Origin: a virus
IMG/VR virus record: IMGVR_UViG_3300017991_000137
Span: 1 to 54,558 of that record
Direction: 5' to 3' (one strand)
DNA length: 54,558 nucleotides
Part shown: positions 1 to 18,594 of the stretch, in pieces
Layout: each line of letters starts with the position of its first letter
Position numbering within the stretch: position 1 is the first letter of the stretch
Translations under genes and position numbers: made by a program
The notes under the pieces: model-generated
The model's database searches: none
The model's input: the letters and a program-made list of their open reading frames with translations, nothing else
Told to the model about the DNA's origin: nothing

Positions 1-681
1 ATTATCAAGCGTTTTGGGCGTGCCCGTGAATTGGCGAAGCGCCCAATCGGAGGCCGACATCGTCTCCCGAATAATCGGGAGGTGGTCGGAGTTCATATCC
101 TGGACTTCGTCGATAGCCACCTTGTCCGCGGAGATACCGCGGACGCGGTCAGCATTCAGGAAGGCAAAGCTGAACAGCATCTTTGACTGGTTCTTGAAGG
201 ATCGGTGGAGAACGCTGTTCACGGTATCGGTTCCTGTCCACAGGAATTGTACTGGGCTTTGGTCGATGAATGGCTGGACGAACATAGTACTGAAACGCCG
301 AACCTGCTCAAAAAGCGGCATTACATAGAGCGTGGTTAGGTTCGGGATCGATACAGACGTAAGCACGCCGTGCGCCGACAGGGAAGTGGACTTGGATACC
401 TGTCGCCCGGTCTTGTAGACTAGGGCAGATGGCATCCGCAGGCGGAACACTTCCTCAAACGGGAAGTGGTTCTGCAGGGTGTACGGTTTTCCTTTGAGAT
501 TGAGCAGGAGCGGCAGCGCCTGAGCCAGTGAGTCGATCAGTCCGGTCTTGATCAGCAGCCCGAAACGGGCCACGCGTTCAGCCGGAGTCAGGTCGGCAAC
601 CTCCTCAGGGTTCAGAGAGGCAGCGATCAGTTGCATCTTTGCAGCGGCCAATGCGTCCGGCCCATCGAGTGGATTTACCAT
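1..681 (-). CDS. terL: Terminase large subunit, N-terminal part (runs off left edge)
   Basis: This is the ATPase motor that packages DNA into the prohead. I translated the minus strand by hand, because the ORF is open at the window edge: 227 codons are present and the C-terminal nuclease domain lies outside. A Walker A-like GRQVSKST is at residues 92-99, and the Walker B region has VAIDEVQDM (D191, E192) followed by a TGTPKT motif III-like segment. The start at 681 has an AGGAG ribosome site. Its ATG overlaps, on the opposite strand, the start codon of the next gene (CATG at 679-682). The portal at the other end of the window lies on the opposite strand, so the packaging genes are not in the usual head-to-tail order. 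Confidence 0.93.
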   Translation of the reverse strand, partial: MVNPLDGPDALAAAKMQLIAASLNPEEVADLTPAERVARFGLLIKTGLIDSLAQALPLLLNLKGKPYTLQNHFPFEEVFRLRMPSALVYKTGRQVSKSTSLSAHGVLTSVSIPNLTTLYVMPLFEQVRRFSTMFVQPFIDQSPVQFLWTGTDTVNSVLHRSFKNQSKMLFSFAFLNADRVRGISADKVAIDEVQDMNSDHLPIIRETMSASDWALRQFTGTPKTLDN

Positions 682-826
682 GATGTCTCCTGATGATAAG
701 CAGCGTGAGCTCGAAAAGTTCCGCGCTGTCGAAGAGTTTGCAGGGCACGCCTGGAAACAGACGCGTGTCATTTTCCTCGCACTGCTCACCTTATGGGTAT
801 TGTGGTGCTATCTTAGCTGGCTTTGA
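680..826 (+). CDS. Small membrane protein, divergent from terminase
   Basis: A 48-residue protein with a charged N-terminal half and one hydrophobic segment at about residues 30-48. The frame extends upstream to 548, but that part lies antisense to the terminase, so I start it at ATG 680 (683 is possible). No strong ribosome site is visible, which lowers confidence. A holin-like or other membrane role is possible but not shown. Confidence 0.55.
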   Translation: MMSPDDKQRELEKFRAVEEFAGHAWKQTRVIFLALLTLWVLWCYLSWL

Positions 827-832
827 TAGTAT
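824..832 (+). promoter_or_regulatory. Extended -10 promoter candidate
   Basis: TG at 824-825, one base, then TAGTAT at 827-832 forms an extended -10 element. No good -35 lies at the expected distance. The same TAGTAT hexamer occurs in the two best promoters of the window (25839 on plus, 9801 on minus). A 7-bp hairpin (ACGGTTT/AAACCGT, 844-869) follows before the 897 gene. Confidence 0.4.
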
Positions 833-896
833 AGCTAGGAAAAACGGTTTACGAAAAGAGTGAAACCGTCTAACAAACAGCCGGGAGGGGCTGAAT

Positions 897-1118
897 ATGG
901 CAATTACCATGAGCGCGAAGTTGTTCCTCGAGCGTGCTGGTCTGCGGCCTACCTACCGCCGCCCAGTGCCGACCACTGTCCCGGAGAACAATCCGGTCCT
1001 CAGGTATCCGATGAGCCGGCCACTACCGCCGGCCTGGACCAAGACGGACGGATATCCTCCACCGGATAGAGGTTCAACTCAGGACGACCCGTGGCATCTT
1101 GGCCCACCGGAGGAATGA
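897..1118 (+). CDS. Small Pro/Arg-rich protein, unknown
   Basis: A 73-residue protein rich in proline and arginine with no recognised domain. The start at 897 is supported by a GGGAGGGG ribosome site. Its stop overlaps the next start (ATGA at 1115-1118), so the two are likely translationally coupled. Confidence 0.75.
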   Translation: MAITMSAKLFLERAGLRPTYRRPVPTTVPENNPVLRYPMSRPLPPAWTKTDGYPPPDRGSTQDDPWHLGPPEE

Positions 1119-1291
1119 TGTTCGAATCATTCGCCAAGACCTCGTTCTTCATCGCCATAATCTGCGGTGCCTGCGCCTTCATCTCCGCTGAGGACGGACC
1201 GCTCTGCGGTATTCCGCTCCTCGCAGGTATTGGCGCCATCATTGCGGCATTCTATGCTGCAAAGGGTTTCACCCAAGGCGACCGCGGATAG
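1115..1291 (+). CDS. Small two-helix membrane protein
   Basis: A 58-residue hydrophobic protein with two predicted membrane segments (about residues 8-28 and 36-52). The ATG at 1115 (or 1118) follows GGAGG at 1109-1113 and overlaps the upstream stop. No family recognised. It heads a short run of membrane genes with 1300. Confidence 0.7.
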   Translation: MMFESFAKTSFFIAIICGACAFISAEDGPLCGIPLLAGIGAIIAAFYAAKGFTQGDRG

Positions 1292-1299
1292 GAGTAGCC

Positions 1300-1710
1300 A
1301 TGACAATCCTGGAGTTCGTTGCTGTGTGCCTCGCCGCCGGCGCGCTTGTCGATGCCTGGCTACACGAGCCCGGGCTCTTCGACGAGGTCCGTGAGTGGAT
1401 CAGTGTCTGGGGGCAGCCGCGTCCGGACGAGGTCCGCGAAACCGGCCTAACGTGGCGCGCGTGGGGTCGTGGAAAGATAGCACAGCTAGCAGGGTGCCAC
1501 AAATGTATGACATACCATGCGGCATTCTGGCTCCTACTTTTGTTTTGGCTGCCAAGCCACTGGCTGAACCCGCCTTGGACCCAAATCTTGTTTTTCCCGA
1601 TTTGGGCCCTGGCGGCTACCCGTTTTTCCCTTCTTATGGCCGATCTCCACGATCGGCTGACTGAATTTAGTTCGCAGGAACAAAATGAGCGACAAGAAGA
1701 AATTCAATGA
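1300..1710 (+). CDS. Membrane protein with CxxC motif, DUF1360-like
   Basis: A 136-residue protein with an N-terminal hydrophobic helix, a CHKCMTYH motif near residue 67, and two further hydrophobic stretches. A CxxC beside a membrane helix is typical of the phage DUF1360 family, function unknown; that assignment is by pattern only. GGAG precedes the start. The tail overlaps the next gene by 26 nt. Confidence 0.85.
   Translation: MTILEFVAVCLAAGALVDAWLHEPGLFDEVREWISVWGQPRPDEVRETGLTWRAWGRGKIAQLAGCHKCMTYHAAFWLLLLFWLPSHWLNPPWTQILFFPIWALAATRFSLLMADLHDRLTEFSSQEQNERQEEIQ
1665..1687 (+). promoter_or_regulatory. Palindrome copy 1 (GTTC-GCAG-GAAC) over a start site
   Basis: ATTTAGTTC, loop GCAG, GAACAAAAT: 8 of 9 arm positions pair. 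The AGGA in the centre is also the ribosome site, and ATG 1685 falls in the right arm. It belongs to a seven-member family (10753, 14705, 18967, 28592, 38103, 47348). Confidence 0.75.
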
Positions 1711-2077
1711 GGTGGTCGTTGAATCCCTCCACGGACTCGCCGAGGACATGCTCGCCGACATCCCGGAGCTGGAAGGCCTCGTGATCGGCATCGTCTACAG
1801 CGATGGCCTCGAAGAGACCAAGCCCAACGTGCTGGTAGTCGGAGACGTCAACGACCCCTTCTTCATCGGAAAGGCCGGCCTCCAAGCCGCCCGCGTATCG
1901 CAGACGGTAATGGCTGCAACCAACAAGCATTTCCAGCTCGCTCTGCAGGTTCGCGAACAACTCCAAGAGGAGATCGATGGCAAACGACGTGAAGCGGAAG
2001 GCGCCAAAGAAGGCGAAGCCGCAGATCGAGGGGATAGCGACCCTGAAGGACCTGCTCGACCATCTAAAGATAACTGA
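1685..2077 (+). CDS. Unknown protein with acidic, low-complexity tail
   Basis: A 130-residue soluble protein. Residues 1-95 look like a folded alpha/beta domain; the last 35 residues are a Glu/Arg/Pro-rich tail that lies wholly over the start of the next gene (101-nt overlap, different frame). Not recognised. Its start sits inside palindrome copy 1, so its translation may be controlled there. Confidence 0.85.
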   Translation: MSDKKKFNEVVVESLHGLAEDMLADIPELEGLVIGIVYSDGLEETKPNVLVVGDVNDPFFIGKAGLQAARVSQTVMAATNKHFQLALQVREQLQEEIDGKRREAEGAKEGEAADRGDSDPEGPARPSKDN

Positions 2078-2612
2078 GTGGGACACCCTAATCGTTGGCG
2101 ACGGCAGCGGCACCGGCTGGAAACAAGGCGCCGGATGGGCTGCCGTTCTTATCGATCGGCACAGTCGTGCCAGGAAGCTCTTCTACGGCGCCATGAACAC
2201 TGGCACCGTTACTCTTGGAGAGCTATTTCCGTATCTGCACGCCATGAGTTGGTATGCTGGCAGGGACGGACCGGGAAGGCAACGGCGGCATGAGCTACGC
2301 AAGGTAGGTCGTGCTATGCACGTGCATATCGTTACTGACTCCCAGGTGGTTGCCACGTGCGGCAACAACCCCGGCTCTCGCCGGGCACACCAGGAGCTTT
2401 GGAAGGCATTCGACGAGTACCAGAAGAACGGGTTCATCCTGCACTTCCACTTCATCGAACGCGATCGCGTCAATCTCAACGTGCTGGTCGACGAAGTCTC
2501 GCGGCAGGCCCGGAAAGACGTAGAGGATACATATGACAGAGCAATCGAAAAGCTCTGCAGTCGATACCCAGGTCTCCCTGGAGACGTGTCAGTGTACCAC
2601 TTCTCCAACTGA
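1977..2612 (+). CDS. RNase H-like protein
   Basis: A 211-residue protein with the RNase HI pattern of acidic residues: D42 in VGDGSGTG, E82 in TLGELFPY, D121 in VTDSQVV and an aspartate in VDEVSR near residue 171. The family cleaves RNA in RNA:DNA hybrids, so primer removal is a reasonable role. A strong AGAGGAG precedes ATG 1977, supporting the long overlap with the upstream gene. Confidence 0.85.
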   Translation: MANDVKRKAPKKAKPQIEGIATLKDLLDHLKITEWDTLIVGDGSGTGWKQGAGWAAVLIDRHSRARKLFYGAMNTGTVTLGELFPYLHAMSWYAGRDGPGRQRRHELRKVGRAMHVHIVTDSQVVATCGNNPGSRRAHQELWKAFDEYQKNGFILHFHFIERDRVNLNVLVDEVSRQARKDVEDTYDRAIEKLCSRYPGLPGDVSVYHFSN

Positions 2613-3051
2613 TGTACTACAGAAGATCCCGCCGGTGCCGCTGCACATTGATCTCTACGAGGACAACATGCCATTCGCTTTGGTCGTGTTCTTCCAGGGA
2701 GAGATTGAGCGAATGCTCGACGGGAGTTGGTACCACAAGAAGCAGAAATACCGCATCACATATGGAAACCACCTGACTGGCAGATCCTGGGAGGTCTGCG
2801 ACGAAGGTGTGATAACGTTCAGCGCTGGCGACTTTCCTCGCCTCGTGATCCAGCCAGATGCCCGGCGTAAGAGCGCCGTCATCCTCATGCTGGAGCACAT
2901 CGTAAAGATCGAGAAGATCCCAGAGGATAAGACAGTCTACCGGCACGAGTTTTTCCATCTGCCCGATGAGCCTGATCCCGTCCTACCCGACGAGTACAGC
3001 GAAGGCAGAAAACACCGAGGTATACGACTGAGAAGGCATGCCACAGAGTGA
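2533..3051 (+). CDS. Unknown protein
   Basis: A 172-residue protein with no recognised family. The first 27 residues overlap the RNase H-like gene by 80 nt and are Ser/Thr-rich; the rest looks like a compact beta-rich domain. An AGAGGA ribosome site precedes ATG 2533. The stop overlaps the next start by 14 nt. Confidence 0.85.
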   Translation: MTEQSKSSAVDTQVSLETCQCTTSPTDVLQKIPPVPLHIDLYEDNMPFALVVFFQGEIERMLDGSWYHKKQKYRITYGNHLTGRSWEVCDEGVITFSAGDFPRLVIQPDARRKSAVILMLEHIVKIEKIPEDKTVYRHEFFHLPDEPDPVLPDEYSEGRKHRGIRLRRHATE

Positions 3052-4885
3052 AACACGCCGTTTCAAAATGCATCAGCAGCTGCTGCTCGACATCATCCAG
3101 CGTCAAGCCGGCAGCCTATGGAAAGCAAGCGTCGAAGGGGTCCAGAACTCCGTCGACTCTGGGTCTACTAGATGTGACATCACTTGTACGCAAGGGATGC
3201 TCATCATATCCGATGACGGTAAAGGTTTCCGTTCCAAAGAAGAAATAGAAGAGTTCTTCGAGGTATTCGGACAGCCACACTCCGTCGAAGAGGAGAAGCA
3301 GTTCGGCCGATTCCGGATGGGCCGCGGACAGCTGTTCGCCTACGGGCGTAACACCTGGCGCAGCGGCGAGTTCGAGATGATCGTCGATATCCAGGAGGAC
3401 GGGCTGGACTACAGGCTCCGTACGGGCCTGGAGAACTATCCGGGCTGCACCGTAACCGTCGAGTTGTACAAGCATCTCACCCACGTCGAGCATGCTGACA
3501 TCATCGACCAAATCAAGAAGAACGTGAAGTTCGTCCGGATCCCCATCCATCTGAACGGTGAGGACAAGACGATCACGAAAGACCGCTCGAAAATTGAATG
3601 GGACATGGAGCTCAAGGAAGCGGACATCAAGTTCCGCGAGAACGGGCCCCTCGAAGTCTACAATCAAGGTGTGAAGGTGCTGACCATCAACAGGTATCGG
3701 TTCGGCACCGGAGGCGATGTGGTCACTAAGGTACCGATCAAGGTCAACTTCGCGCGGAACGACGTCATGTCGGACTGCCCGGTGTGGACCAAGATCTCGT
3801 CGAATATCCGCACACACGTAGCCAATACGAGTGTCGCTCGCGACAGTTCTGGCAACGTGGTCAATTCTAGTTCCAGACGACGCCCGCGTGCCCGCACGCA
3901 GAACGCGACGTCGCAGAACACGGCCAACAGACGGTCGCCAATCACCAACGACGCGGACCGCAAGCGGGTCGCGACGTCGATGAAGGACAAGGACATTTCG
4001 ACCCAGTACGCGCGTGCTGCCAAGCTGCACACGCTGCTACAGGACCAGCGACACGTTACGTTGCGGGTCCTACACGGTATTGGTCGCGGTGTCGTGACCC
4101 TCGCACCAGAGGGAACACGACACTGGTCGTACGAATGTCGTCGTATCCAAGACGCCAAGATTGCCGCTGTCCTCGACAGGGTGATGTTGGATCGCTGGAA
4201 CGCCAAGAACGGCCATCAGTTGGTGTGGATCATCAACAAATCCTACTACGATCTCGGCATCCACGGATACAACTTGCAGTACATCGACTACGACAAGACC
4301 GTTGAGGCGATGGGCAAAGAGCACCTGATCCTTGAAGAGAAGGAGCTCACCCGTGTCGAACGGATCGTCTTAGAGGTGCTGCGTGCGCAGATGCATGCGA
4401 TCCAGTATGCGGTGCGGAACTCCAAAGGCAGCCGGGAGTTGTTCATCGGCACCGGGCCGCTGGAGCACTGGACCGACGGCCAGACCTTCATCGCGCTGAA
4501 CCGCAAGGAGGTCAAGCAACTGGGAGCCAACTACCGGGTCTGGAACAAGTACATGATGATGATTCTCCACGAATATTGTCATGACAAGCCCAGCACCGGT
4601 AAGAAGCACCTACATACGAAGGCGTTCTACAGCACGATGGTCGACGCGTTGGACAGCTGGTACCTAGGCAACTTCCCGTACGAATGTTCGCATCGCATGC
4701 CCCGCATCGCTGCGGACGTCAAACGGAAGCTGACCAGGACCGAACTCCACGGCATCGATCTGCAGACGGACGCCAAAAAAGCAGTTGATGAGACATGCGA
4801 GGATCTCGGCATCCCAACGGAACCGCCCGAGATGCTGCCGCTTCCAGACCCGCTACGCGTAGCCACCAATCAGGAAGGAGAATGA
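3038..4885 (+). CDS. GHKL ATPase fused to HExxH zincin-like domain
   Basis: A 615-residue protein. The N-terminus has the ATP-binding signatures of the GHKL superfamily (Hsp90, MutL, gyrase B): N-box E33-xxx-N37-xx-D40, DDGKGF at 59-64, and GRFRMGRGQ at 90-98. A basic Ser/Arg-rich linker lies near 285-320. The C-terminal region has HEYCH (H511, E512, H515) after a hydrophobic strand, then KKHLHTKAF, which resembles the third zinc ligand of SprT-like metalloproteases. ATP-driven protein remodelling with proteolysis is an inference; the protease part rests on this motif alone. Confidence 0.9.
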   Translation: MPQSETRRFKMHQQLLLDIIQRQAGSLWKASVEGVQNSVDSGSTRCDITCTQGMLIISDDGKGFRSKEEIEEFFEVFGQPHSVEEEKQFGRFRMGRGQLFAYGRNTWRSGEFEMIVDIQEDGLDYRLRTGLENYPGCTVTVELYKHLTHVEHADIIDQIKKNVKFVRIPIHLNGEDKTITKDRSKIEWDMELKEADIKFRENGPLEVYNQGVKVLTINRYRFGTGGDVVTKVPIKVNFARNDVMSDCPVWTKISSNIRTHVANTSVARDSSGNVVNSSSRRRPRARTQNATSQNTANRRSPITNDADRKRVATSMKDKDISTQYARAAKLHTLLQDQRHVTLRVLHGIGRGVVTLAPEGTRHWSYECRRIQDAKIAAVLDRVMLDRWNAKNGHQLVWIINKSYYDLGIHGYNLQYIDYDKTVEAMGKEHLILEEKELTRVERIVLEVLRAQMHAIQYAVRNSKGSRELFIGTGPLEHWTDGQTFIALNRKEVKQLGANYRVWNKYMMMILHEYCHDKPSTGKKHLHTKAFYSTMVDALDSWYLGNFPYECSHRMPRIAADVKRKLTRTELHGIDLQTDAKKAVDETCEDLGIPTEPPEMLPLPDPLRVATNQEGE

Positions 4886-4936
4886 TGTTATGAACACGCT
4901 GTTTCGACGGTACTTTCCTTGTCGTGAGGTGGTGCC

Positions 4937-5203
4937 GTGCATGAGAACCTAACCTGGGATATCAAGCAAGCATTGCACATCCGGATACTCGTCGGCGTCG
5001 ATGGCGTCGGCGAGTATTGGGATGACATGCAAAAGGGCCGCCGCAAATCCGCTGACGTATGGCTGTTATACAACAGACCCAGCCTCGCCAGCCCACCGTG
5101 TCCGCAGCGGATACGGTTCATCCGGCTCATCGACCAACTTTACCAAGAGCGAAGGGAGGCCAAACGTGCCAACAACAAAAAGGGAGGCAAGGGTTTGCGG
5201 TAA
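4937..5203 (+). CDS. Small basic protein, unknown
   Basis: An 88-residue protein with a lysine/arginine-rich C-terminus. GTG 4937 is chosen because a GAGG ribosome site precedes it and no ATG is in frame nearby. It overlaps the next gene by 38 nt. No family recognised. Confidence 0.7.
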   Translation: MHENLTWDIKQALHIRILVGVDGVGEYWDDMQKGRRKSADVWLLYNRPSLASPPCPQRIRFIRLIDQLYQERREAKRANNKKGGKGLR

Positions 5204-5471
5204 GTGTAGCACGTCAACCACCGAATGGTATCCATTCACCGGCGGAGCCCAGTTGCCTGCAATCCGTTGCAACCACTGCTACGAGAACGAGGTGCAGCGA
5301 TGCATCCGAGAGCAGCTGGACTTCGACAAAGTAAAATCCATAGAGAAGAAGGAGATCAAACAGCTCAGTGGAGACGACGATGTACGAAGCGTTCGCCCAA
5401 ATGGGCGTGAAGCTCCACAACGACACAATCGAAATCGTGGAAACCTCCGTGTCTTTCCCGATCCACGTTGA
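5166..5471 (+). CDS. Zinc-ribbon protein
   Basis: A 101-residue protein with CGKC and CNHC pairs about 26 residues apart, the spacing of a zinc ribbon, followed by a charged helix. GTG 5166 follows GGGAGG. The last 30 residues (Arg/Asn-rich) overlap the next gene by 92 nt in another frame, again an overprinted tail. It probably binds nucleic acid or protein; no specific role is visible. Confidence 0.75.
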   Translation: MPTTKREARVCGKCSTSTTEWYPFTGGAQLPAIRCNHCYENEVQRCIREQLDFDKVKSIEKKEIKQLSGDDDVRSVRPNGREAPQRHNRNRGNLRVFPDPR

Positions 5472-5703
5472 GCCCTACCCGGGCATGTTCATCTACTCGA
5501 GCAGGTGGAAGGGATTGCTGCCGATCGCCCATGTGTTCTATGACGCTGACCGCAAAGCGTACGTCATGGCCATCGGCGTCGGCGCCTACGATTACACCAT
5601 GACCCTCGAAGAGTGGCTGACCGAGCGGCCATATTGGAAAAAAGCGGAAAACCCGCTGATTGACATGATCCCGCGAGACGAAAAGCCGTCGGAACCGCCG
5701 TGA
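5380..5703 (+). CDS. Unknown protein
   Basis: A 107-residue soluble protein with no recognised family. ATG 5380 is preferred over GTG 5368 because GGAG at 5369-5372 is correctly spaced for it. Three short hairpins follow the stop. Confidence 0.85.
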   Translation: MYEAFAQMGVKLHNDTIEIVETSVSFPIHVEPYPGMFIYSSRWKGLLPIAHVFYDADRKAYVMAIGVGAYDYTMTLEEWLTERPYWKKAENPLIDMIPRDEKPSEPP

Positions 5704-5787
5704 GAGGCCTCCTGAGGCCCATACGCGGCCCGTAAAGCCGAAAAGGGCTCCCAGGAGCCCATTTGCGACCCGGGCCTTAGCGGCCCT
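5704..5787 (+). other. Three GC-rich hairpins between genes
   Basis: GGCCTC/GAGGCC (5706-5719), GGGCTC/GAGCCC (5745-5760) and GGGCC/GGCCC (5772-5786) follow one another in the 107-nt gap. None has a U-run, so they are not classic terminators. They may protect or punctuate the transcript before the 5811 gene. Confidence 0.5.
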
Positions 5788-5810
5788 CTGAGACGATCTG
5801 GAGGCTAGCA

Positions 5811-6386
5811 TTGGTAGCAGCCATTGAAATCCCGTTTGCCCGCCTACCGCGAGACGTGTACATCGAAGGACCCCGCTATCGGGTGGAGATCCCTCGACTG
5901 GACTTCTACGCGTACGAAACGATCGGCGGGTGCATCGGGCACACCGGCGCCCTGGCAATGGCAGACTTTGATGAAAGGAGAATTACCTTGGAAATTGAAA
6001 TTCCCATCAAGAAAGAATTACTGCTTGAGACCCTACGGAAGAACCGCGAGGAACATCAGCAGATCTATGACGAGGCGCTCGCAGCATACTGCAAGCGTGC
6101 ACAAGAACACTGTGAGGCACTGGTTGCGAAGTTGAGGAAGGGCGAAGCCGCATACGTCGGCGTCAACTTCAACCCGCCGGAGAACCACGTCAAAGACTAC
6201 GACCTCGCGATTTCGATGGTGGAGATGGCGGAGACGCCACTCATCACGCTCAACGCTGAGGACTTCTCCATGCTGGTCCGCGACGACTGGGGATGGCAGA
6301 AACGCTGGCTGAAGACGAGCGGCTCGCTCATCGGCGGACACAGCAACTCGGCCTCGACAAAATGCCTGGCCATGTACAACGAGTAG
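5811..6386 (+). CDS. Conserved phage protein of unknown function
   Basis: A 191-residue product from TTG 5811 (GGAGG at 5800-5804). From residue 60 it resembles a widespread unassigned actinophage-type family: a start like MEIEIPIKKELLLETL, a helical stretch, then DYDLAI...MLVRDDWGWQ. That family normally begins near this point, and a strong AAGGAG at 5975-5980 precedes an in-frame TTG at 5988. Two products from one frame, or a shorter real gene at 5988, are both possible. Confidence 0.8.
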   Translation: MVAAIEIPFARLPRDVYIEGPRYRVEIPRLDFYAYETIGGCIGHTGALAMADFDERRITLEIEIPIKKELLLETLRKNREEHQQIYDEALAAYCKRAQEHCEALVAKLRKGEAAYVGVNFNPPENHVKDYDLAISMVEMAETPLITLNAEDFSMLVRDDWGWQKRWLKTSGSLIGGHSNSASTKCLAMYNE

Positions 6387-6399
6387 GCCTTAACGCTGT

Positions 6400-6452
6400 G
6401 CCGTGGTGCGTCGGTAGCTAATCCCTTCTGGCGCACCGCGGCCGCGATTTTT
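6400..6452 (+). terminator. Terminator at convergent gene ends
   Basis: An 11-bp stem (GCCGTGGTGCG 6400-6410 with CGCACCGCGGC 6432-6442, one G-U pair) and 21-nt loop, followed after six bases by five T. It ends the plus-strand run and meets the stop of the minus-strand operon. Confidence 0.65.
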
Positions 6453-6690
6453 ACTCTTTGGGCCCGGCAACGAGGTCGTTGCGGAACGCGCTCGCCGAGC
6501 AGTTCAGCCCGAAGGTCTGCTTGGCCCACTCGAAGAGTTCGCGTTGGGAGATGCCGTCGTAGCGGCCTTCTTGCCATCTGATGACGAACTCATTCCACAG
6601 TTCCTTCTGTTCGCCCTTGAGCGTCCTGGCTGTGATAACACGGCTTCGCGATTCGAGTTCGTCGAGTGGGGAGTTCTTCTTCTTCGCCAT
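6451..6690 (-). CDS. Small unknown protein, possible HTH
   Basis: A 79-residue protein with a basic N-terminus and a helical segment (residues 45-72) compatible with a helix-turn-helix; this is a weak resemblance. It is the last gene of the minus-strand operon. Its start overlaps the stop of the SPFH gene (TAATG). Confidence 0.75.
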   Translation of the reverse strand: MAKKKNSPLDELESRSRVITARTLKGEQKELWNEFVIRWQEGRYDGISQRELFEWAKQTFGLNCSASAFRNDLVAGPKE

Positions 6691-7265
6691 TACTCTGCTT
6701 CCTCGGTTTCTTCGTTCTGCGGCAACGGGATGATCTGCGTCGAGCCGATTACCCGGTGCATGTTGGTGAGATGGAAGTCGGACATGAATGCTACTTCCAC
6801 GTCGACGCCAAACGGTTCAAGGTCCTTTCGGATCTTGTTGGTGATCATATGGTTGATGCGTTGATGTCTCCGCACCAGGTCTTGCATCGTCTTACCGACG
6901 ATTGCTTGGATAACACCCTCTTGGGCTCGGTCACGTATCGTGGTCTCGAAGTCGTATGTTTCGACCATCGCTTTGATGATGTCTTTTATGCGGAAAACAA
7001 CGGTCACTGATATTGTGATGCCAAGTGGTAGTGTGCTATCATGCGGTAATGTCTGAGCCTCTAAGTTCAGAGTATCTCGGACAACAGGATGGACTATCGG
7101 TCTTTGGATGGGAGGCCAGTAGAGGTGGAAGCCAGGCCTGAGTCGCTTCGCTCTACCGAGGGTAAGCATCACACCTTCCTGAGTCTTGTCGACATGAAGA
7201 CCTCTCGGGAAGATTCTTGATGCCCACCGCAGTAAATCAGATAACCACCCAAGACCGATGTCCAT
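6690..7265 (-). CDS. SPFH/band 7 (stomatin-prohibitin) protein
   Basis: A 191-residue protein with the band 7 core: VDKTQEGVMLTLGR, RPGFHLYWPP, a beta-rich middle, then an alpha-helical repeat (RDRAQEGVIQAIVGKTM). SPFH proteins form membrane-associated rings. The N-terminus is only weakly hydrophobic, so membrane attachment may be peripheral. It is shorter than cellular stomatins (about 250-300). Phage homologues are known but their role is unclear. Confidence 0.88.
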   Translation of the reverse strand: MDIGLGWLSDLLRWASRIFPRGLHVDKTQEGVMLTLGRAKRLRPGFHLYWPPIQRPIVHPVVRDTLNLEAQTLPHDSTLPLGITISVTVVFRIKDIIKAMVETYDFETTIRDRAQEGVIQAIVGKTMQDLVRRHQRINHMITNKIRKDLEPFGVDVEVAFMSDFHLTNMHRVIGSTQIIPLPQNEETEEAE

Positions 7266-7272
7266 GCTGTTG

Positions 7273-7779
7273 TTATCCTGGTCTGAGGATTCCGAGTACC
7301 TTCGCGAGCCGCGCGAGCTTCTGATATAACTCCGTCAGCGTCCCGTTGTTCGGGATGATCACATCGGCCACGTCAGAAGACATTTCTAGGGAAGGGTCCT
7401 CATCCACATCCCGCTCGATCCACACGACAAGGTCGATCATGCCGCGATCTAGCAATGCTTGCAATTCGCCGGCCCTCCGGATGCCGTTGAGCAGGTTGGA
7501 TTCCTTGAGCATATCCTCGTAGAGGGTGATTCCCAAGGGCTGATTATACTCCCAAATGATCTTGGCCCATAGGACCCGGTGATTATGCCGATCCTCCCAA
7601 CAATCGTGAGGGTCGACGTACCCAAAATCTCGGCCAATCCGGTCAAATACTAGCGGTGCTGCCGCCTCGCTAGTACTGCCAGCATTGACCAAAATCGTGT
7701 TGTCGGAGAGCCACTGCATGGCGGTGTCTTTGCCGCAGCGACCGGGTCCGCAGATCGCGAGATTCAGTCGTCGTTCCAT
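7273..7779 (-). CDS. P-loop nucleotide kinase
   Basis: A 168-residue protein with Walker A GPGRCGKDT at residues 11-19 and a small kinase layout similar to phage deoxynucleoside monophosphate kinases. The substrate cannot be read from the sequence. With the neighbouring HAD nucleotidase it suggests adjustment of nucleotide pools. Its start overlaps the 3' end of the 7764 gene. Confidence 0.82.
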   Translation of the reverse strand: MERRLNLAICGPGRCGKDTAMQWLSDNTILVNAGSTSEAAAPLVFDRIGRDFGYVDPHDCWEDRHNHRVLWAKIIWEYNQPLGITLYEDMLKESNLLNGIRRAGELQALLDRGMIDLVVWIERDVDEDPSLEMSSDVADVIIPNNGTLTELYQKLARLAKVLGILRPG

Positions 7780-8081
7780 TGCCAGTCTCCATGGGCGTCC
7801 ATGTAATCGGTCCGCGGATGGGCTCCGTACAACAACATCGCCCGGCAGGCGATGGCTGCGACCTTACGCAGGGCCTGCAGCGTCTTCACTTCGTCGGCGC
7901 CGTGCACCCAAGCCTCTTCGGCCTTGCGGGCGTACACGGCAAGCGTGACGAGCTGGCCCACTACGCCGTGGTCCTTGCCGTCACTGCGATCGGTGTCAGC
8001 GAACGAGTTCTGATACTGGAGCTCGCTGTTGATCGCTTCGATCACTTCCGGAGTCAGCGCCGGATTCGGGATGGTCATCAT
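7764..8081 (-). CDS. Conserved phage protein, unknown
   Basis: A 105-residue helical protein. The pattern (NSELQYQNSF...KDHGVVGQL then ALRKVAAIACRAMLLYGA) resembles a family seen in many phages and usually annotated hypothetical. ATG 8081 overlaps the stop of the upstream gene (ATGA); the longer frame to 8159 is antisense overlap and rejected. Confidence 0.8.
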   Translation of the reverse strand: MMTIPNPALTPEVIEAINSELQYQNSFADTDRSDGKDHGVVGQLVTLAVYARKAEEAWVHGADEVKTLQALRKVAAIACRAMLLYGAHPRTDYMDAHGDWQWNDD

Positions 8082-8650
8082 TCTTCTAGCAGTCCTTCGT
8101 ATTGCTCGTGGACGCAATCCATCGGTTCGTCCCACCGAGCACGGAAACGGTTGTAACACGCAGGGAACACGATCTGCCGCGCACCCCGCTCACGGAACTT
8201 CAACTCGTACCGCTCGTCGTCGTCGACGAGCAGCACGCCGGGCTTCGCCACGCTCTCTTTACGGCCGGTGAAGATGACGTCATGTTCGTCGATCTCCTGG
8301 CCGAAGTTGCGGCGGAGCCATGTCAATTTGCCACGTACGCAGTACGCGGTGTCTCGCCCGTTGAGCTCGGGCAGGCATATCGGCCGCGACAAGAATGTCA
8401 CCGGCCCGATCTGGCGGCAGAACTGGTACAACTCGATCGCCCACGGGAAGATCGGGATCTCGTCCCAGAAGTAATGCTTCTCGTCGACGATTGGTGCCCA
8501 GCACTCTTCCTGCGTGATGCCCAGCACCTCTTCGAGGCAGCGGGTTGTCAGATTGTGTGCCAGATCCATTCGCTTGTGGATATGCATGAAGGCGTGGACG
8601 AAATCAGCGATCACGCCATCCATATCCAGGTAGATTTCTTCGAAACGCAT
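8078..8650 (-). CDS. HAD-family 5'-nucleotidase-like phosphatase
   Basis: A 190-residue HAD enzyme. YLDMDGVIADF gives the nucleophile and acid (D9, D11), FLSRP fits motif II, and LLVDDDERYELKF is the motif III/IV region. The layout matches 5'(3')-deoxyribonucleotidases, which remove phosphate from (d)NMPs. It is coupled to the gene after it by an ATGA overlap. Confidence 0.85.
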   Translation of the reverse strand: MRFEEIYLDMDGVIADFVHAFMHIHKRMDLAHNLTTRCLEEVLGITQEECWAPIVDEKHYFWDEIPIFPWAIELYQFCRQIGPVTFLSRPICLPELNGRDTAYCVRGKLTWLRRNFGQEIDEHDVIFTGRKESVAKPGVLLVDDDERYELKFRERGARQIVFPACYNRFRARWDEPMDCVHEQYEGLLEE

Positions 8651-8651
8651 G

Positions 8652-9749
8652 CTACCTCACCAGTGTGTCATCGCAGAAAATTGGCATGGACAGGATTTTC
8701 CCGTGCTCGTAGTCTATAACTATGAGCGTTTGGGTAGGCGGCTGAGCTTCCGCACCAATGTATTGGGCGTAAGCGTTGTAGCCGACGAGGCAACCGCACA
8801 GCACGTAATTCCAGTCTTCGGCATACTGGTGGAAGTGACCGAGCACATCTAACTCAGCTTGGCGCTCTTTGTTCCACTGGGCGATTTTCTTCCTCAGTGG
8901 AATGTGAACGCCGCCGATGCCGCCACCGCCTTTGATGGCGTCGCCGTGATGGAAGCGGACATCGTGGCCTTGAATGGGCATCCAGAGGTGGTAGCCCTTC
9001 GCGATCTTGAAGTTGACCTTCGAGTCGTTTTGGAAATGCAGTGCGACGTTGTTGTACGCCAACCACTCCCATGAGGTTTTCCAACCAGTGGAAATGGGCT
9101 TCTTCCGAGTCGTACGGCCGTGGTTGCCGTAGTTGCCAAGGAATGTGATTTGGTCGCATTTGACCTGGGACTTGATGAACTCGATGCCGGTGATAAGCTT
9201 TTCCTGCGTGTAGAGGATCGCCTCGGCAGGACCGGTAAAGTTTGACTCCATCAACTCCTCGTGGATGTAGCCATTGATCATGTCACCACCAGCCCAGACA
9301 ACGACCTCTTGGATGTCGCTGAAGCTTTTGATGGTATCCAGAAGGTACACCGCCTTCTGCCAGGTGTTCTCGATGCGACGATCAGCAATCTTCGGGTTGA
9401 ACTTGTTTGCGTTCCCGGTAACCTCCGGGTCGACGTTCTCCTCGCAGTGCCAATCATTCACACAGATGATCGCAGAGGCTTTGCCCCTGCCACGCCGCTT
9501 CTTGCTCATCTCGAGCTTCCGCAGCGTCTTCTCGTCCTGGGTCGCAAGAATCAACTCGGTGTTGTCCTCGGCCAGGAGTAAGTCCTTCTCGGACTGCTTG
9601 TACTTTGCCTCAGCTTCTTTCTTTGCCAACGTAGCAGCGGCCAACTTCCGTTCGAGATCGCGTATCTTGCGAATCTTCTCGTCGTCGTTAAGGGCGGCTA
9701 GTGCATCGAGCTGGGCGAGTTTGGAGGGGGTTTCTTTGGCGCGTGCCAT
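8652..9749 (-). CDS. Calcineurin-like metallophosphoesterase with coiled coil
   Basis: A 365-residue protein. Residues 10-75 are a Lys/Glu-rich coiled coil. The rest carries the metallophosphoesterase motifs: NDWH, GGDMING, GNYGNHGR, HHGD and GHFHQ. The substrate is unknown. ATG 9749 is chosen because GAGGATA precedes it and the promoter at 9796-9824 lies upstream; an extension to 9824 would run through that promoter. First gene of the minus-strand operon. Confidence 0.9.
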   Translation of the reverse strand: MARAKETPSKLAQLDALAALNDDEKIRKIRDLERKLAAATLAKKEAEAKYKQSEKDLLLAEDNTELILATQDEKTLRKLEMSKKRRGRGKASAIICVNDWHCEENVDPEVTGNANKFNPKIADRRIENTWQKAVYLLDTIKSFSDIQEVVVWAGGDMINGYIHEELMESNFTGPAEAILYTQEKLITGIEFIKSQVKCDQITFLGNYGNHGRTTRKKPISTGWKTSWEWLAYNNVALHFQNDSKVNFKIAKGYHLWMPIQGHDVRFHHGDAIKGGGGIGGVHIPLRKKIAQWNKERQAELDVLGHFHQYAEDWNYVLCGCLVGYNAYAQYIGAEAQPPTQTLIVIDYEHGKILSMPIFCDDTLVR

Positions 9750-9795
9750 GGATCCGTATCCTCGCTTGGGTGAGAAAAATAACCTTGCTACCTTC

Positions 9796-9824
9796 ATACT
9801 AACCGATCTGTGAGAAATCGTCAA
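9796..9824 (-). promoter_or_regulatory. Sigma-70 promoter of the minus-strand operon
   Basis: On the minus strand TTGACG (plus 9819-9824), a 17-bp spacer, then TAGTAT (plus 9796-9801). It lies about 50 bp upstream of ATG 9749 and can drive all six genes down to 6451. Confidence 0.75.
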
Positions 9825-9853
9825 CCTCTATTATCTGCAAATTTCAGCAAAAG

Positions 9854-9877
9854 TGCTTGCCTTGCAAGCATAAGGAG
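9854..9877 (+). promoter_or_regulatory. Leader hairpin directly before a ribosome site
   Basis: TGCTTGC, loop CTT, GCAAGCA: a perfect 7-bp stem (9854-9870) one base before AAGGAG (9872-9877). It could affect ribosome loading on the 9887 gene. A TATTAT at 9829-9834 may be its -10, without a clear -35. Confidence 0.45.
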
Positions 9878-9886
9878 ACTCCACCC

Positions 9887-10204
9887 ATGCCAAACACCAT
9901 TCCCGTAAACCATTGCCCTGACGTGGAGCTGACGAAGCTCCCGAGCAAGTCAGTGGTCACGTACGACGGTAAGCAGGTAAAATTGGGTATGGCAGTGTAC
10001 TTTCGCTTGTCCCCGGGACACGCGGTCAACGAGTACGTGGTGGTTTCTGATCGAGCGATAAAGCGGAAGGATGGCTACTACATCATGGTAGCTGGCGGAC
10101 GCAGCGTCGCGGCAGCAATGCCGGCACTAGACTTCGTGGTGTGCAAAAAGCTATGGTGGGAGTTCTACCAGAAACGCCACGGGAAACGGAGGACCGATGG
10201 ATAG
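9887..10204 (+). CDS. Unknown protein
   Basis: A 105-residue soluble protein, unrecognised, with a basic C-terminus. ATG 9887 follows AAGGAG at good spacing; the in-frame TTG at 9857 lies in the leader hairpin and is rejected. The stop overlaps the next gene by 8 nt. Confidence 0.85.
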   Translation: MPNTIPVNHCPDVELTKLPSKSVVTYDGKQVKLGMAVYFRLSPGHAVNEYVVVSDRAIKRKDGYYIMVAGGRSVAAAMPALDFVVCKKLWWEFYQKRHGKRRTDG

Positions 10205-10562
10205 CCGTATGTGGCCAAAGTGTCCGAAAGGAACGCAGGCCAAAATTGAAAAGAACGCGAAGCTCCACATGGAGTATTTCCACGCGTTCGCGGAAGTGTT
10301 TGACCGGAATCTCGACGAATTCTGGATCAACAGTGTTAGAGGTTTTGACCATGAGGGCTTCGCCCGGGCAATGATTCGAAAGCAGACACGCGGAAAGCTG
10401 GTCGATGCCGTTCGCGCCGAACACGGCGACGAGGCCGCTCAGCTGCTCCGCAAGCTCGTTCCGTCAGGGTGCACATTCAACCGACGGAAGGGCATACCTT
10501 CTAGAAAGCCCAGGCAACGCCGTCGTACGACCTACAAGAGCGTGGCAAAAAGGCGTCGCTGA
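10197..10562 (+). CDS. Small basic protein, unknown
   Basis: A 121-residue protein with a strongly basic tail (an RRRTTYKSVAKRRR end), suggesting nucleic-acid binding. GGAGG precedes ATG 10197. No family recognised. Confidence 0.82.
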   Translation: MDSRMWPKCPKGTQAKIEKNAKLHMEYFHAFAEVFDRNLDEFWINSVRGFDHEGFARAMIRKQTRGKLVDAVRAEHGDEAAQLLRKLVPSGCTFNRRKGIPSRKPRQRRRTTYKSVAKRRR

Positions 10563-10598
10563 GTGTCGTCGCTTGGCCCGCCGCCCGTCAATTGTGCC

Positions 10599-10723
10599 GG
10601 TTCGCGATCAGTCACACAGTGCAAATGACACCTGACTCGCGACCACATGATGGGTCTCACGCGGAGGTCGTTACGCGGTGCCTCCCTGAGCTGGACGGGG
10701 CGACCCACACGGGCGCCCCGTCC
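10599..10723 (+). ncRNA. Structured leader upstream of the sigma-factor gene
   Basis: Three consecutive stem-loops lie in the 192-nt gap: GGT-CGCGA-TCAG with CTGA-TCGCG-ACC (10599-10644), GGAGG/CCTCC (about 10670-10686), and a perfect 10-bp stem GGACGGGGCG/CGCCCCGTCC (10693-10723). The last is not followed by a U-run. This may be a cis-acting regulatory leader or stable RNA; I did not match it to a known riboswitch. Confidence 0.5.
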
Positions 10724-10751
10724 ACGCAACCATTTTCCTATGGAGGACGTA

Positions 10752-10773
10752 ATTTTGTTTCCAGGAACAAAAA
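10752..10773 (+). promoter_or_regulatory. Palindrome copy 2 (GTTT-CCAG-GAAC) at sigma-factor start
   Basis: TTTTGTTT, CCAG, GAACAAAA with one G-U pair. TTG 10755 lies in the left arm and AGGA is in the loop/right arm. Confidence 0.7.
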
Positions 10774-11516
10774 GTGCAATGCTGGACGATAGCGAGTGGA
10801 TGTCGCGCATATGTCAGCAGGTGGGCGTTTTGCCCAGAAAAGATCTCGACGCTGCAGCCGCCGCCGGTAAGGAGGACACCGGGCCGTGGAAGCAGGCGAT
10901 CGAGAGCGTCGTAAGGTACACGTGGGGGCTGGCAATCAAGCTGCATAACGAGAGCGTCCCCGCCGTCGACCTATTTCAAGAGGGGATCCTGGGCGCCATG
11001 CACGCCATCGACGCGTGGGATCCCAATCACGAGTCCCGGGCCGGCTTCCAGACATATGCCGGCTGGGCGTCGCGACAGTACATGCTGAAGTACCGCGCGG
11101 AAGACCGCCTGATTCGCCTGCCGATCGCATGGTTCCAAGGAATCCCGCGACCGGAGTGGATTGAGAGGTTCCCCGAGGCAACCAAGCCAGCGTTGTCGAC
11201 GAACACGGAATGTCGTGGCGAAGGCAAGCGCGCATTGAAGCTCGGCGACGTGCTTCCCGACAAGAAGATAAAGCAGCCATACGAGAACGCCGACCTCGAC
11301 GAGCTGTTCGATCGCTTCCACCTCATCGTGAGTCGTATGGAAGCCCGTCGGCGAGAAGTCCTGATTCGTCGCTTCCACGGCGAGACACTCGAGCAGGTTG
11401 CCAACGTCATGGGCGTCTGCAAGGAGCGTGTTCGCCAGTTGCAGATGGACGCGATGCAAGACATAAACGTATTCAGATCAACTCCCATTGTTTACACGGA
11501 GAACGTTATCGTATGA
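10755..11516 (+). CDS. RNA polymerase sigma-70 family factor
   Basis: About 253 residues. Region 2 is recognisable (DLFQEGILGAMHAI, FQTYAGWASRQYM), as is region 4 with its helix-turn-helix (ETLEQVANVMGVCKERVRQLQ). It should redirect host RNA polymerase to phage promoters. Start choice: TTG 10755 has GGAGG at 10742-10746 with 8-nt spacing; ATG 10740 lacks a ribosome site, and ATG 10779 is the next alternative. The start lies within palindrome copy 2, so its own translation may be regulated. Confidence 0.92.
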   Translation: MFPGTKSAMLDDSEWMSRICQQVGVLPRKDLDAAAAAGKEDTGPWKQAIESVVRYTWGLAIKLHNESVPAVDLFQEGILGAMHAIDAWDPNHESRAGFQTYAGWASRQYMLKYRAEDRLIRLPIAWFQGIPRPEWIERFPEATKPALSTNTECRGEGKRALKLGDVLPDKKIKQPYENADLDELFDRFHLIVSRMEARRREVLIRRFHGETLEQVANVMGVCKERVRQLQMDAMQDINVFRSTPIVYTENVIV

Positions 11517-11941
11517 GCGAGACACTGATCATCCTCAAGCCCGACTGCATCAGGCGAGGTCTCATGGGTGAGGTCCTCAAACGCTTGGAGCGGAAGGGCG
11601 TCCGATTCCTTCGGATGCGAGCACTGCAGATGACCGACAAGCACATCGAAGGCTTGTACGGCAAGTTCAAGGACGAAGATTTCTACAAACGCATCTCAGA
11701 GTTCATGGCCGGAGGCCTGTCGGTGGCCGGCGTTGCATATGTGCCGCACGCCATCGAAACCAGCATAACCACAGTCCGCACTCTCATGGGCAGCTTCACG
11801 GCTCCTCAGGCGGGCACCATCCGCGGCGACCTCGCCAAGTCACCGCATCACAACATCATCCACGCCAGCGACTCGCCAGAGAACGCCAAGCGTGAGATCG
11901 AAATCTTCTTCCCAGGCTACCCCGGCGACGTCGCCATGTAA
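11513..11941 (+). CDS. ndk: Nucleoside diphosphate kinase
   Basis: A 142-residue protein, the usual length. ETLIILKPDCIRRGLMGEVL matches the NDK N-terminus and NIIHASDS carries the catalytic histidine. It transfers phosphate from NTPs to NDPs. The segment corresponding to the Kpn loop is divergent (YVPHAIETSITTVRTLMG). ATGA overlap with the sigma-factor gene implies coupled translation. Confidence 0.93.
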   Translation: MSETLIILKPDCIRRGLMGEVLKRLERKGVRFLRMRALQMTDKHIEGLYGKFKDEDFYKRISEFMAGGLSVAGVAYVPHAIETSITTVRTLMGSFTAPQAGTIRGDLAKSPHHNIIHASDSPENAKREIEIFFPGYPGDVAM

Positions 11942-11960
11942 GTGGCGCGTCTGCTGGCGT

Positions 11961-12326
11961 ATGCTTCGGGATCGCAACGGCGTGCCTGCCACCCTCTTCC
12001 ACGGTGTGCAGGGTTCACGCGTACTGCCTCTCGATGAGTGGATCGAGGCAGATCAAAAGACTGCATGGGACGGGGATCGCCGGACGGCTACCAAGTACCG
12101 CTCTGGCTTCCACGTCATGCAGCATGCAAACGATATCGTTCGATTCTCCAATCGTTTCCGCAACATCTCCGACCTAGTGATATGCAAGGTTTGGGTCCGC
12201 GGGGACATCTGGGAGAAAGAACATAGCCCGTCACCAATACTATTGGCGGCAGAAATGCAAATCCCATCGAGTGCGTGGGACGCGCGACTTACACTTACCT
12301 ATATCAGGAGTAACTACGGAGGGTGA
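11961..12326 (+). CDS. Conserved phage protein, unknown
   Basis: A 121-residue protein containing RTATKYRSGFHVM and VRGDIWEKEHS, a pattern I associate with an unassigned phage family. ATG 11961 is the first reasonable start after the NDK stop; its ribosome site is weak. Confidence 0.78.
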   Translation: MLRDRNGVPATLFHGVQGSRVLPLDEWIEADQKTAWDGDRRTATKYRSGFHVMQHANDIVRFSNRFRNISDLVICKVWVRGDIWEKEHSPSPILLAAEMQIPSSAWDARLTLTYIRSNYGG

Positions 12327-12327
12327 C

Positions 12328-12567
12328 ATGGCAAACGTTATCGCCGTTTGTGTTCTAATTGGCATCCCAGCCACAGCTATTGTCTTCTTCCTCGGTTGGT
12401 GGTCTGGCGTGGCGAGTGCAATGCACCGCGCCCAGCAATTTCAGGCAGCCCGGAAGCGAGTCACTACGCACGGCATTACGGTATTCGAATGGCGTGGGGA
12501 GTACGGCTGGGAGTTTGATCGCTTCTACAGCGACGGCGTCGAAACGCCAGGGAAGGAGACGGGATAA
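12328..12567 (+). CDS. Small membrane protein
   Basis: A 79-residue protein with one N-terminal membrane segment (residues 3-28) and a soluble tail. GGAGG precedes ATG 12328. First of five consecutive small membrane-protein genes; lysis or membrane-takeover roles are possible but not shown. Confidence 0.82.
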   Translation: MANVIAVCVLIGIPATAIVFFLGWWSGVASAMHRAQQFQAARKRVTTHGITVFEWRGEYGWEFDRFYSDGVETPGKETG

Positions 12568-12869
12568 TGGGCTGGTTCACCTTGGGTGCGTTATGCGGCA
12601 TTATAATAGGAGGCGCCATTATGGGTTGCCTCGGAATGCTGCATGGCCAGCGCGTCATTCAACAAGCAGCCATCTGGGCCGGCGTGGCCGAGTGGCGTAC
12701 CGACAAGTCGACCTACGATCCTGTCTTCGTGTGGATGTCTCGAGAGGACACCTACACGCTGAATGGGGACTTCGTGGATGACGTAATGCTAACCAACAAG
12801 GAGAAAGACCTTGCAAAGGGAAGATCAACCGGAGGACAGGCAGATGACGAGCCTGGAGAGAGCAGTTGA
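12567..12869 (+). CDS. Small membrane-anchored protein
   Basis: A 100-residue protein with an N-terminal glycine-rich membrane helix (residues 4-25) and an acidic soluble domain. Its ATG overlaps the previous stop (TAATG). Confidence 0.82.
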   Translation: MGWFTLGALCGIIIGGAIMGCLGMLHGQRVIQQAAIWAGVAEWRTDKSTYDPVFVWMSREDTYTLNGDFVDDVMLTNKEKDLAKGRSTGGQADDEPGESS

Positions 12870-12990
12870 AGAGGAACTGATTGCACAGGCACGTACCCGG
12901 CGAAGGCAGGGCATGGTGGCTGCTGCTGCGCTCGTCTGCGCCTTCGCTGCGATCATCGTCCTTGTCCTCGGCAAAGTATTTGGATTCTGA
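12844..12990 (+). CDS. Very small membrane protein (48 aa)
   Basis: Translated by hand: a charged N-terminal helix rich in Glu and Arg (residues 1-22), then a hydrophobic segment of Ala/Val/Leu/Ile (24-43), ending GKVFGF. GGAGG lies 8 nt before ATG 12844. It overlaps the previous gene by 26 nt. Confidence 0.7.
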   Translation: MTSLERAVEEELIAQARTRRRQGMVAAAALVCAFAAIIVLVLGKVFGF

Positions 12991-12991
12991 C

Positions 12992-13105
12992 ATGAGTGAC
13001 TTCAACGACGGCTGTCTGTGCGGCGCCGCAATAATCTTCGCGATCATCGGACTGGTGTGCCACATCATCTGCTTGGTCGCCTACCTGATGGGAGCCCATC
13101 CATGA
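12992..13105 (+). CDS. Very small Cys-containing membrane protein (37 aa)
   Basis: A single hydrophobic segment with three cysteines (CLCGAAII, CHIICLVAYL). The ribosome site is weak, but the ORF fits exactly between its neighbours, with an ATGA overlap to the next gene. Confidence 0.6.
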   Translation: MSDFNDGCLCGAAIIFAIIGLVCHIICLVAYLMGAHP

Positions 13106-13674
13106 GTGAAGGAAGCAGCAAGAGTAGCATGGCCCTTATCGTCCTCTTCATGGCGGTAGGTGTCGTCCTGCTCTCGAAGGCTTGTGTCCGAGACGCCGAC
13201 GGTGCAAATCGATGCCGCGGCGGCACGTGCAGTGTTACGGCACAAGTCAAGATCGTCAACAAGGACGACGAACCAGTCAAGGCGGAGATCACCGCTTGGT
13301 CGAACGACACTTGGCTACCGGAAGAGTGGATGGAGAGTCCCAAGGAGATCCCTCAGGACGACCGTCCCATTCCGACCTGGGCCGAAGCCACCCAGAACAA
13401 AGCGACCACGTTCATCGACCTCTGTACCAAGTACAAAGAACACCGCGCGAACGTGATGCAAAACTATCGTAAGATGAGCGTCCATTACGGACTGCTTCCG
13501 ATCGATCATCCCGACAAGGACAAGATGTATCGACGGTTGCTACTTCAGTGGATGATCATCAACGGAAAACTCAACCTCGACGACGTGAGGCTTTATCCTG
13601 GGAGCGCCGACAAAGAAGCGCGCGCCAAGATGAAGAACTTCAGACATGAGGATAAAGGTATCGGCATCGACTGA
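13102..13674 (+). CDS. Membrane-anchored protein, unknown
   Basis: A 190-residue protein with an N-terminal hydrophobic segment (residues 9-27) ending LLSKAC, followed by a Cys-containing loop and a large soluble domain. The sequence around the cysteine is a poor lipobox, so a membrane anchor is more likely than a lipoprotein. Spanin-like topology is possible. A large terminator follows. Confidence 0.85.
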   Translation: MSEGSSKSSMALIVLFMAVGVVLLSKACVRDADGANRCRGGTCSVTAQVKIVNKDDEPVKAEITAWSNDTWLPEEWMESPKEIPQDDRPIPTWAEATQNKATTFIDLCTKYKEHRANVMQNYRKMSVHYGLLPIDHPDKDKMYRRLLLQWMIINGKLNLDDVRLYPGSADKEARAKMKNFRHEDKGIGID

Positions 13675-14601: not shown

Positions 14602-14620
14602 GGCTGGAAAGCCCGACCGG

Positions 14621-14700
14621 ACAGGGTTGCCTGCGGAAAGAGCGCTGTGGTGAGACGCCCCCCAATTTCATTACAGCATGCTCATTCGCAGGCACCCTGT
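14621..14700 (+). ncRNA. Structured RNA leader, about 80 nt
   Basis: ACAGGG-TGCCTGCG (14621-14635, one bulged T) pairs perfectly with CGCAGGCA-CCCTGT (14687-14700). Inside, GAGC-GCTGT (14640-14648) pairs with ACAGC-GCTC (14673-14683), leaving a C-rich apical loop. It ends five bases before palindrome copy 3 and the start of the 14725 gene. The long imperfect stem looks like a cis-regulatory element; no known class recognised. Confidence 0.6.
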
Positions 14701-14704
14701 GCCG

Positions 14705-18524: not shown

Positions 18525-18553
18525 GGTAACCTCCTTGCAGTAGTGTTGTCCCC

Positions 18554-18582: not shown

Positions 18583-18594
18583 CTGGAGGGAAAG

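Follow-up and report, generated by a model that had tools for sequence, protein, structure and literature searches.

A GHKL ATPase joined to a predicted zincin protease domain in proteins of phages, plasmids and haloarchaeal replicons

Introduction

What could be the role of a protein that combines, in one polypeptide, the motifs of a GHKL ATPase and those of a zinc metalloprotease? The question is raised by a gene of the IMG/VR virus record IMGVR_UViG_3300017991_000137, the whole of which (54,558 bases) was analysed and is referred to below as the window. The initial annotation had proposed a Hsp90/MutL-type ATPase joined to a SprT-type zinc protease. The open frame was recovered exactly at 3038-4885 (+), with the N-box, DDGKGF and FGRFRMGRGQ motifs all present and with HEYCH and HLHTKAF located at residues 511-515 and 524-530. 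Homologues match the 615-residue protein over nearly its full length, for instance with 43% identity across residues 1-596. PADLOC, PHROGs and NCBIfam provided no name for the whole protein. In public records the family members are mostly labelled 'ATP-binding protein', and also 'hypothetical protein' or 'DNA mismatch repair protein'. The gene and the segments of its product are the following.

3038..4885, + strand: GHKL-zincin gene, 615 aa, open frame without internal stop
3038..3604, + strand: GHKL nucleotide-binding domain, residues 1-189 (Pfam HATPase_c_3, motif conservation, hhalign)
3605..3847, + strand: Hsp90 middle-domain-like (S5-fold) segment, residues 190-270 (hhalign, R240, Foldseek)
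3848..3943, + strand: predicted flexible linker, residues 271-302, rich in Arg, Ser, Thr and Asn (AF2 pLDDT below 50 for residues 269-302)
3944..4417, + strand: middle alpha/beta region, residues 303-460, modelled at high pLDDT
4418..4717, + strand: predicted SprT/WLM-like gluzincin domain, residues 461-560 (invariance, profile matches, AF2)

Among the other products of the window are two DNA helicases, one of them DnaB-like, together with a DNA polymerase, a UvsX-like recombinase and an SbcC-like subunit. No close DNA relative of its positions 1-20000 was found among named phages. Two further genes were noticed: a Band 7/SPFH (stomatin-like) protein is encoded at 6690-7265 (-) (Pfam E=1.7e-17) and has relatives in related phages, and the product of 16528-18156 (+) resembles in its C-terminal part a heptose kinase/adenylyltransferase (PHROG 5.6e-21) and contains a region matching phrog_8133, of unknown function.

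The ATPase module

The key residues of the nucleotide-binding domain are E33, N37, D40, D59-G61-G63, G90-G95-G97 and G136-C137, spread over an N-box (E33-x3-N37-x2-D40), the DDGKGF (59-64) and FGRFRMGRGQ (89-98) motifs and a downstream Gly-Cys pair. Pfam HATPase_c_3 matches the 615-residue protein at E=7.7e-7, above the curated cut-off. Conservation was assessed on 49 aligned full-length members, of which 43 were left after those more than 90% identical had been dropped. N37, D59, G61, G63, G95, G136 and R240 are invariant in all 43, and E33, D40, G90 (42/43 each) and G97 (40/43) are nearly so. On these motifs, the protein is classified as a member of the GHKL ATPase superfamily.

The double label of Hsp90/MutL type stood for its first half, R240 included; likeness to MutL is limited to the nucleotide-binding part. 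Compared by hhalign with six HtpG-type sequences, residues 3-266 scored 97.3% (E=2e-11), whereas the score of 97.0% against MutL concerned residues 19-185 only. Membership of MutL was rejected on this restricted alignment and on the NCBIfam mutl model, which gave 16.3 bits for a cut-off of 180. The hhalign comparison sets VNFARND of the window protein (LNVSRTEIL in relatives) on the LNVSRE arginine loop of the Hsp90 middle domain, R240 being the arginine, with N237 and R240 falling at the position of the LNVSRE arginine of Hsp90. In a Foldseek search with the full model, Hsp90/TRAP1 were listed first (E ~1e-12); the overall rmsd is large, so that only part of the protein superposes.

Further downstream, neither residues 268-462 nor residues 461-600 gave a hhalign signal with Hsp90 above the reversed control, and residues 303-460 on their own have no significant similarity to Hsp90. 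Pfam HSP90 is absent from the families matched by the 34 members from which the family profile was built. Hints of a fuller middle domain were obtained (a full-profile match to HtpG 293-498 at E=0.001 and a Foldseek match to HtpG at E=0.27), but the candidate was rejected and a full middle domain is not claimed, because residues 303-460 alone give no signal above the reversed control. Since neither the remaining middle domain nor the C-terminal dimerisation domain could be found, the module is described as Hsp90-like and not as Hsp90. With its Hsp90-type arginine loop, it is predicted to work like Hsp90.

Hsp90 acts on protein clients, and the closeness of the ATPase to Hsp90, including R240, would suit a chaperone-protease whose Hsp90-like part handles a client that the zincin trims or removes, either in quality control or in the assembly of a virion or a conjugation machine. 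We regard such a role as improbable: phages, conjugative plasmids and haloarchaeal plasmids have no obvious assembly client in common, and residues 303-460 show no significant similarity to the remainder of the Hsp90 middle domain.

The zincin module

The key residues of the C-terminal domain are W478-T479-D480, H511-E512-x2-H515 and H526-x3-F530. H511, E512, H515, H526 and F530 are invariant in the 43 non-redundant full-length members, which places the zincin motif beyond chance. The homologues were checked for loss of HExxH, and every one of the 43 has kept it. The initial annotation had hesitated between H524 and H526 for the third zinc ligand; conservation favours H526, since H524 is kept in just 25/43. 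The pattern of HExxH followed by a predicted third ligand in an (E,H)xx(A,F,T,S,G)-like motif, found in all 43 sequences, is that of a clan MA zincin of the gluzincin type. In the AF2 model, of mean pLDDT 92 for residues 303-600, H511 is placed close to the end of one helix and H526 just ahead of the next, a secondary structure compatible with ligands that would converge on one metal. The zincin dN/dS of close pairs (Erwinia, Paenibacillus, Pseudomonas) is 0.04-0.13, indicating purifying selection much like that on the ATPase; two phage pairs are less constrained, at about 0.5.

The assignment to a SprT-type zinc protease held in part, as profiles and weak fold matches agree with it and no Pfam, PHROG, NCBIfam or PADLOC model names the domain at its cut-off. 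When all PDB sequences were searched with a profile built on residues 461-565, only five matches were obtained up to E=5: two Spartan chains (best E=0.005), one WLM protease (0.04), proabylysin (0.14) and Wss1 (1.6). The four PDB alignments listed centre on HExxH and on the third His-x3-Phe, and the similarity spans about 40 residues with weak E-values (0.005 to 1.6). The Pfam SprT-like model (PF10263) did not reach its gathering cut-off of 25.6 bits, the best case being the zincin region of the family member L045 (E=1.4e-4, 18.2 bits); hmmscan matched this model in 1/34 members, at E=0.013. Searched with Foldseek, the C-terminal model gave nothing at E <0.2. The first PDB match was a putative Zn-dependent peptidase (probability 0.60), followed at lower rank by BepA, BlaR1 and selecase, and among viral models a SprT-like protein was matched with a probability of 0.69. 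Weak singly, these lines are consistent together, and a SprT/Spartan-like reading of the domain is supported by profiles and by weak fold matches. A very distant viral member (L059:234-1844), about 24% identical in the ATPase, has the zincin motif HEVAHCMGEWHDERF, whose spacing looks nearer to that of classical SprT/WLM proteins.

The domain might instead be a structural or regulatory metal-binding domain devoid of protease activity. Such a reading would fit the weak fold matches, and it has a precedent in the plasmid zincin ArdC, which exerts its known function, antirestriction, without needing its protease activity (PMC7213743); conservation of a plasmid zincin is thus no proof that it acts as a protease. 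E512, the catalytic glutamate, is nevertheless invariant in 43/43, which argues against this reading because a structural site needs the histidines and not that glutamate. We consider it very unlikely.

Family and distribution

The family is carried by large phages, bacterial plasmids and some haloarchaeal plasmids. About 200 of 72,556 plasmids have the gene, mostly from Acinetobacter, Pseudomonas and Xanthomonas, with some haloarchaeal ones, as do about 27 IMG/VR loci on contigs of up to 479 kb. The haloarchaeal plasmid proteins match the 34-member profile near full length (E ~1e-113). Relatives occur in bacterial genomes of Pseudomonas, Erwinia, Methylobacter, Burkholderia and Paenibacillus. 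The gene is rare among 796 sampled genomes: it was found in 1/397 further Pseudomonadota genomes, as a fragment at a contig end, and in 0/397 further genomes of the phylum of Paenibacillus. It is an accessory gene, chiefly of mobile elements. That phages, plasmids and archaeal replicons all carry it suggests a difficulty which mobile DNA meets in general.

Some members stand out. The 143.6-kb record of the Pseudomonas cerasi plasmid p58T3 contains three GHKL-zincin copies (L022, L023 and L025) and a Natronorubrum plasmid contains two. A. baumannii ATCC 17978 has a 149-kb conjugative plasmid on which the gene neighbourhood is the same as at two loci recorded as 'Acinetobacter phage MD-2021a' (L006 and L068); these phage records may therefore be plasmid fragments. 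A Pseudomonas/Erwinia/Paenibacillus subfamily (L026, L030, L036) has about 200-250 additional C-terminal residues that terminate in a conserved GETxWSLERNAAAAGF..DYLxWR; this motif appears LysM-like by eye, and Pfam reported no LysM.

Gene neighbourhood

Two genes directly precede the GHKL-zincin gene in the window.

1977..2612, + strand: RNase HI-like gene, upstream, 67-73% identical in five related phages
2533..3051, + strand: 172-aa partner gene, no Pfam match, overlapping the GHKL-zincin start by 14 bases

The 172-aa gene lies directly upstream in six phages including the window, overlapping the start in five and abutting it in one. Across this phage group it has invariant RxxYG, TGRxW and YRH motifs. 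A distant relative of the RNase HI-like protein, in L045, matches Pfam RNase_H at 1.6e-10. Downstream, six related phages have a gene of the size of an NAD-dependent DNA ligase that forms one homologous family, confirmed as a ligase by Pfam in L001 and L011; no such gene is found in the window itself. At plasmid loci, neither the 172-aa gene nor the RNase H gene is a recurrent neighbour. There, and in genomes, the commonest neighbour by raw count is a type IA topoisomerase, at 9/31 loci (Pseudomonas, Burkholderia, Paenibacillus), a link mostly within one subfamily. A single-stranded DNA-binding protein (SSB) gene is located near the GHKL-zincin gene in several Pseudomonas loci. On a P. syringae plasmid the gene is part of the conjugation region, where it has virB11 on one side and the coupling-protein, topB and ssb genes on the other. 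In the phage group as in plasmids and genomes, the neighbours are mostly DNA-handling genes. PAPS-reductase-like genes were also seen within a few kb on plasmids (L061, L064, L065, L071) and phages (L019, L047, L055); the association, with a combined p of 0.007 for PF01507 matches only, was tested after being noticed and is taken as a lead only.

The main rival to a role on DNA-bound proteins, which the neighbours suggest, is counter-defence by analogy with ArdC: the protease would inactivate a host defence protein such as a restriction enzyme, a nuclease or an abortive-infection factor. ArdC, made of a DNA-binding domain and a gluzincin, lets plasmid R388 overcome HsdRMS (PMC7213743). A gene that occurs predominantly on mobile elements (about 200 plasmids, about 27 IMG/VR loci, against 1/397 and 0/397 genomes), whose P. 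syringae plasmid copy lies among conjugation genes and whose C-terminal half diverges faster than the ATPase in pairwise comparison, could occupy such a niche. However, the phage group of the window places the gene by RNase H and ligase and not by known anti-defence genes, and the strong purifying selection in close pairs is not the diversifying signal of an arms race. Counter-defence appears rather unlikely on balance.

Systems that act against competitors are common on plasmids and large phages, and the protein could itself be a defence or exclusion effector, in which the GHKL module would detect an incoming phage or plasmid and turn the protease on. VcSduA, which has an N-terminal GHKL ATPase and a C-terminal effector, protects against phages, and its Shedu nuclease has been proposed to be under the control of the GHKL domain (PMC12137116). 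Against this stand the lack of any PADLOC family match at E up to 1, the lack of a recurring operon with known defence genes and the proximity of replication and repair genes in the phage group of the window, and we give this possibility a low probability.

Proposed function

The preferred explanation, which we hold tentatively and at somewhat less than an even chance, is that mobile elements encode here a metalloprotease of Hsp90 type, gated by ATP, whose most likely targets are proteins bound or crosslinked to DNA. The architecture is well supported: one polypeptide has two complete and conserved sets of active-site motifs, both invariant in 43/43 members across phages, bacterial plasmids and a haloarchaeal plasmid, and each module is homologous to known ones. 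The N-terminal 266 residues would bind, and probably hydrolyse, ATP in the fashion of Hsp90. The lid would close and two subunits would dimerise, R240 of the middle segment completing the site. Zinc would be held by H511, H515 and H526 with E512 as the base, and the C-terminal gluzincin would cut a protein that ATP-driven closure presumably delivers to, or clamps at, the protease site.

The steps of this mechanism are not equally firm. Zinc-dependent proteolysis, ATP-driven closure and dimerisation are inferred from family membership, and the coupling of ATP to the protease more weakly so. The class of substrates is a guess by analogy with the nearest relatives and from the neighbours (RNase H, ligase, topoisomerase III, SSB). 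The likeliest ones would be proteins bound or covalently linked to the DNA of the element, e.g. topoisomerases, relaxases, terminal proteins or restriction proteins. Two considerations count against such substrates: no DNA-binding domain was identified in the GHKL-zincin protein, and Hsp90-type ATPases mostly act on proteins and not on DNA. The roles suggested at the outset, the clearing of DNA-protein crosslinks or the inactivation of host proteins, are both possibilities.

Novelty and significance

The modules are each of a known kind and their combination appears to be new. The fusion had been presented from the start as undescribed, and our search, which left preprints and most subscription papers aside, found no description of a GHKL domain fused to a zincin, SprT or metallopeptidase domain. 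GHKL proteins of restriction systems and MORC have been described with no mention of peptidases (PMC2292703), and jumbo phages encode rIIA-type GHKL proteins and, separately, SprT-like peptidases (PMC7824862).

The family may possibly, though this is doubtful, represent a class of ATP-dependent proteases outside AAA+, in which a Hsp90-type clamp loads substrates, probably DNA-bound, into a Spartan-like protease of the same chain, and which mobile elements would have spread across bacteria, archaea and large phages. The established types of ATP-dependent protease (Lon, Clp, FtsH, HslUV, proteasome) are driven by AAA+ motors. If ATP does drive cleavage, the protein would be an ATP-dependent protease without such a motor and a new way to couple ATP to proteolysis. 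The gene is present on plasmids of bacteria that are tractable in the laboratory, including those of P. syringae and large conjugative ones of Acinetobacter, and single mutants in the invariant residues would be simple to test.

Comparison with known systems

The protein has in common with Hsp90, HtpG and TRAP1 the N-terminal GHKL domain, the start of the middle domain and the catalytic arginine in an N-x-[SA]-R loop. It differs from them in that the zincin domain replaces the C-terminal dimerisation domain and that the remaining middle domain is unrecognisable by sequence. With MutL/MORC-type ATPases it shares the GHKL motifs, and PMS2 and MutL are the nearest PDB sequences of the N-box region, but the similarity ends at about residue 185 and no MutL C-terminal domain was found. 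No restriction operon was seen around the gene. T4 rIIA is likewise a phage protein of the GHKL type, and its C-terminal domain is variable (PMC7824862), although it has no HExxH; a relationship was rejected, the hhalign probability with the family being 1.7%. The PHROG named RIIA was matched by 1/34 members at 1.5e-5, as is expected from the shared GHKL fold.

On the protease side, Spartan (SPRTN), Wss1 and WLM proteins have the same HExxH and third His with a Phe three residues on, and they provide the best PDB matches of the zincin profile. Here the domain is fused to an ATPase, and the similarity is restricted to the active-site stretch. ArdC of plasmid R388 resembles the family as a two-domain protein of conjugative plasmids with a C-terminal gluzincin. 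It has a ssDNA-binding domain and a Glu as third ligand (PMC7213743), in place of which the present family has a GHKL ATPase and, by prediction, a His; membership of ArdC was rejected on these two differences. VcSduA is a Shedu protein in which a GHKL ATPase is also joined to a C-terminal effector enzyme (PMC12137116): the effector is a PD-(D/E)xK nuclease there and a predicted zincin here.
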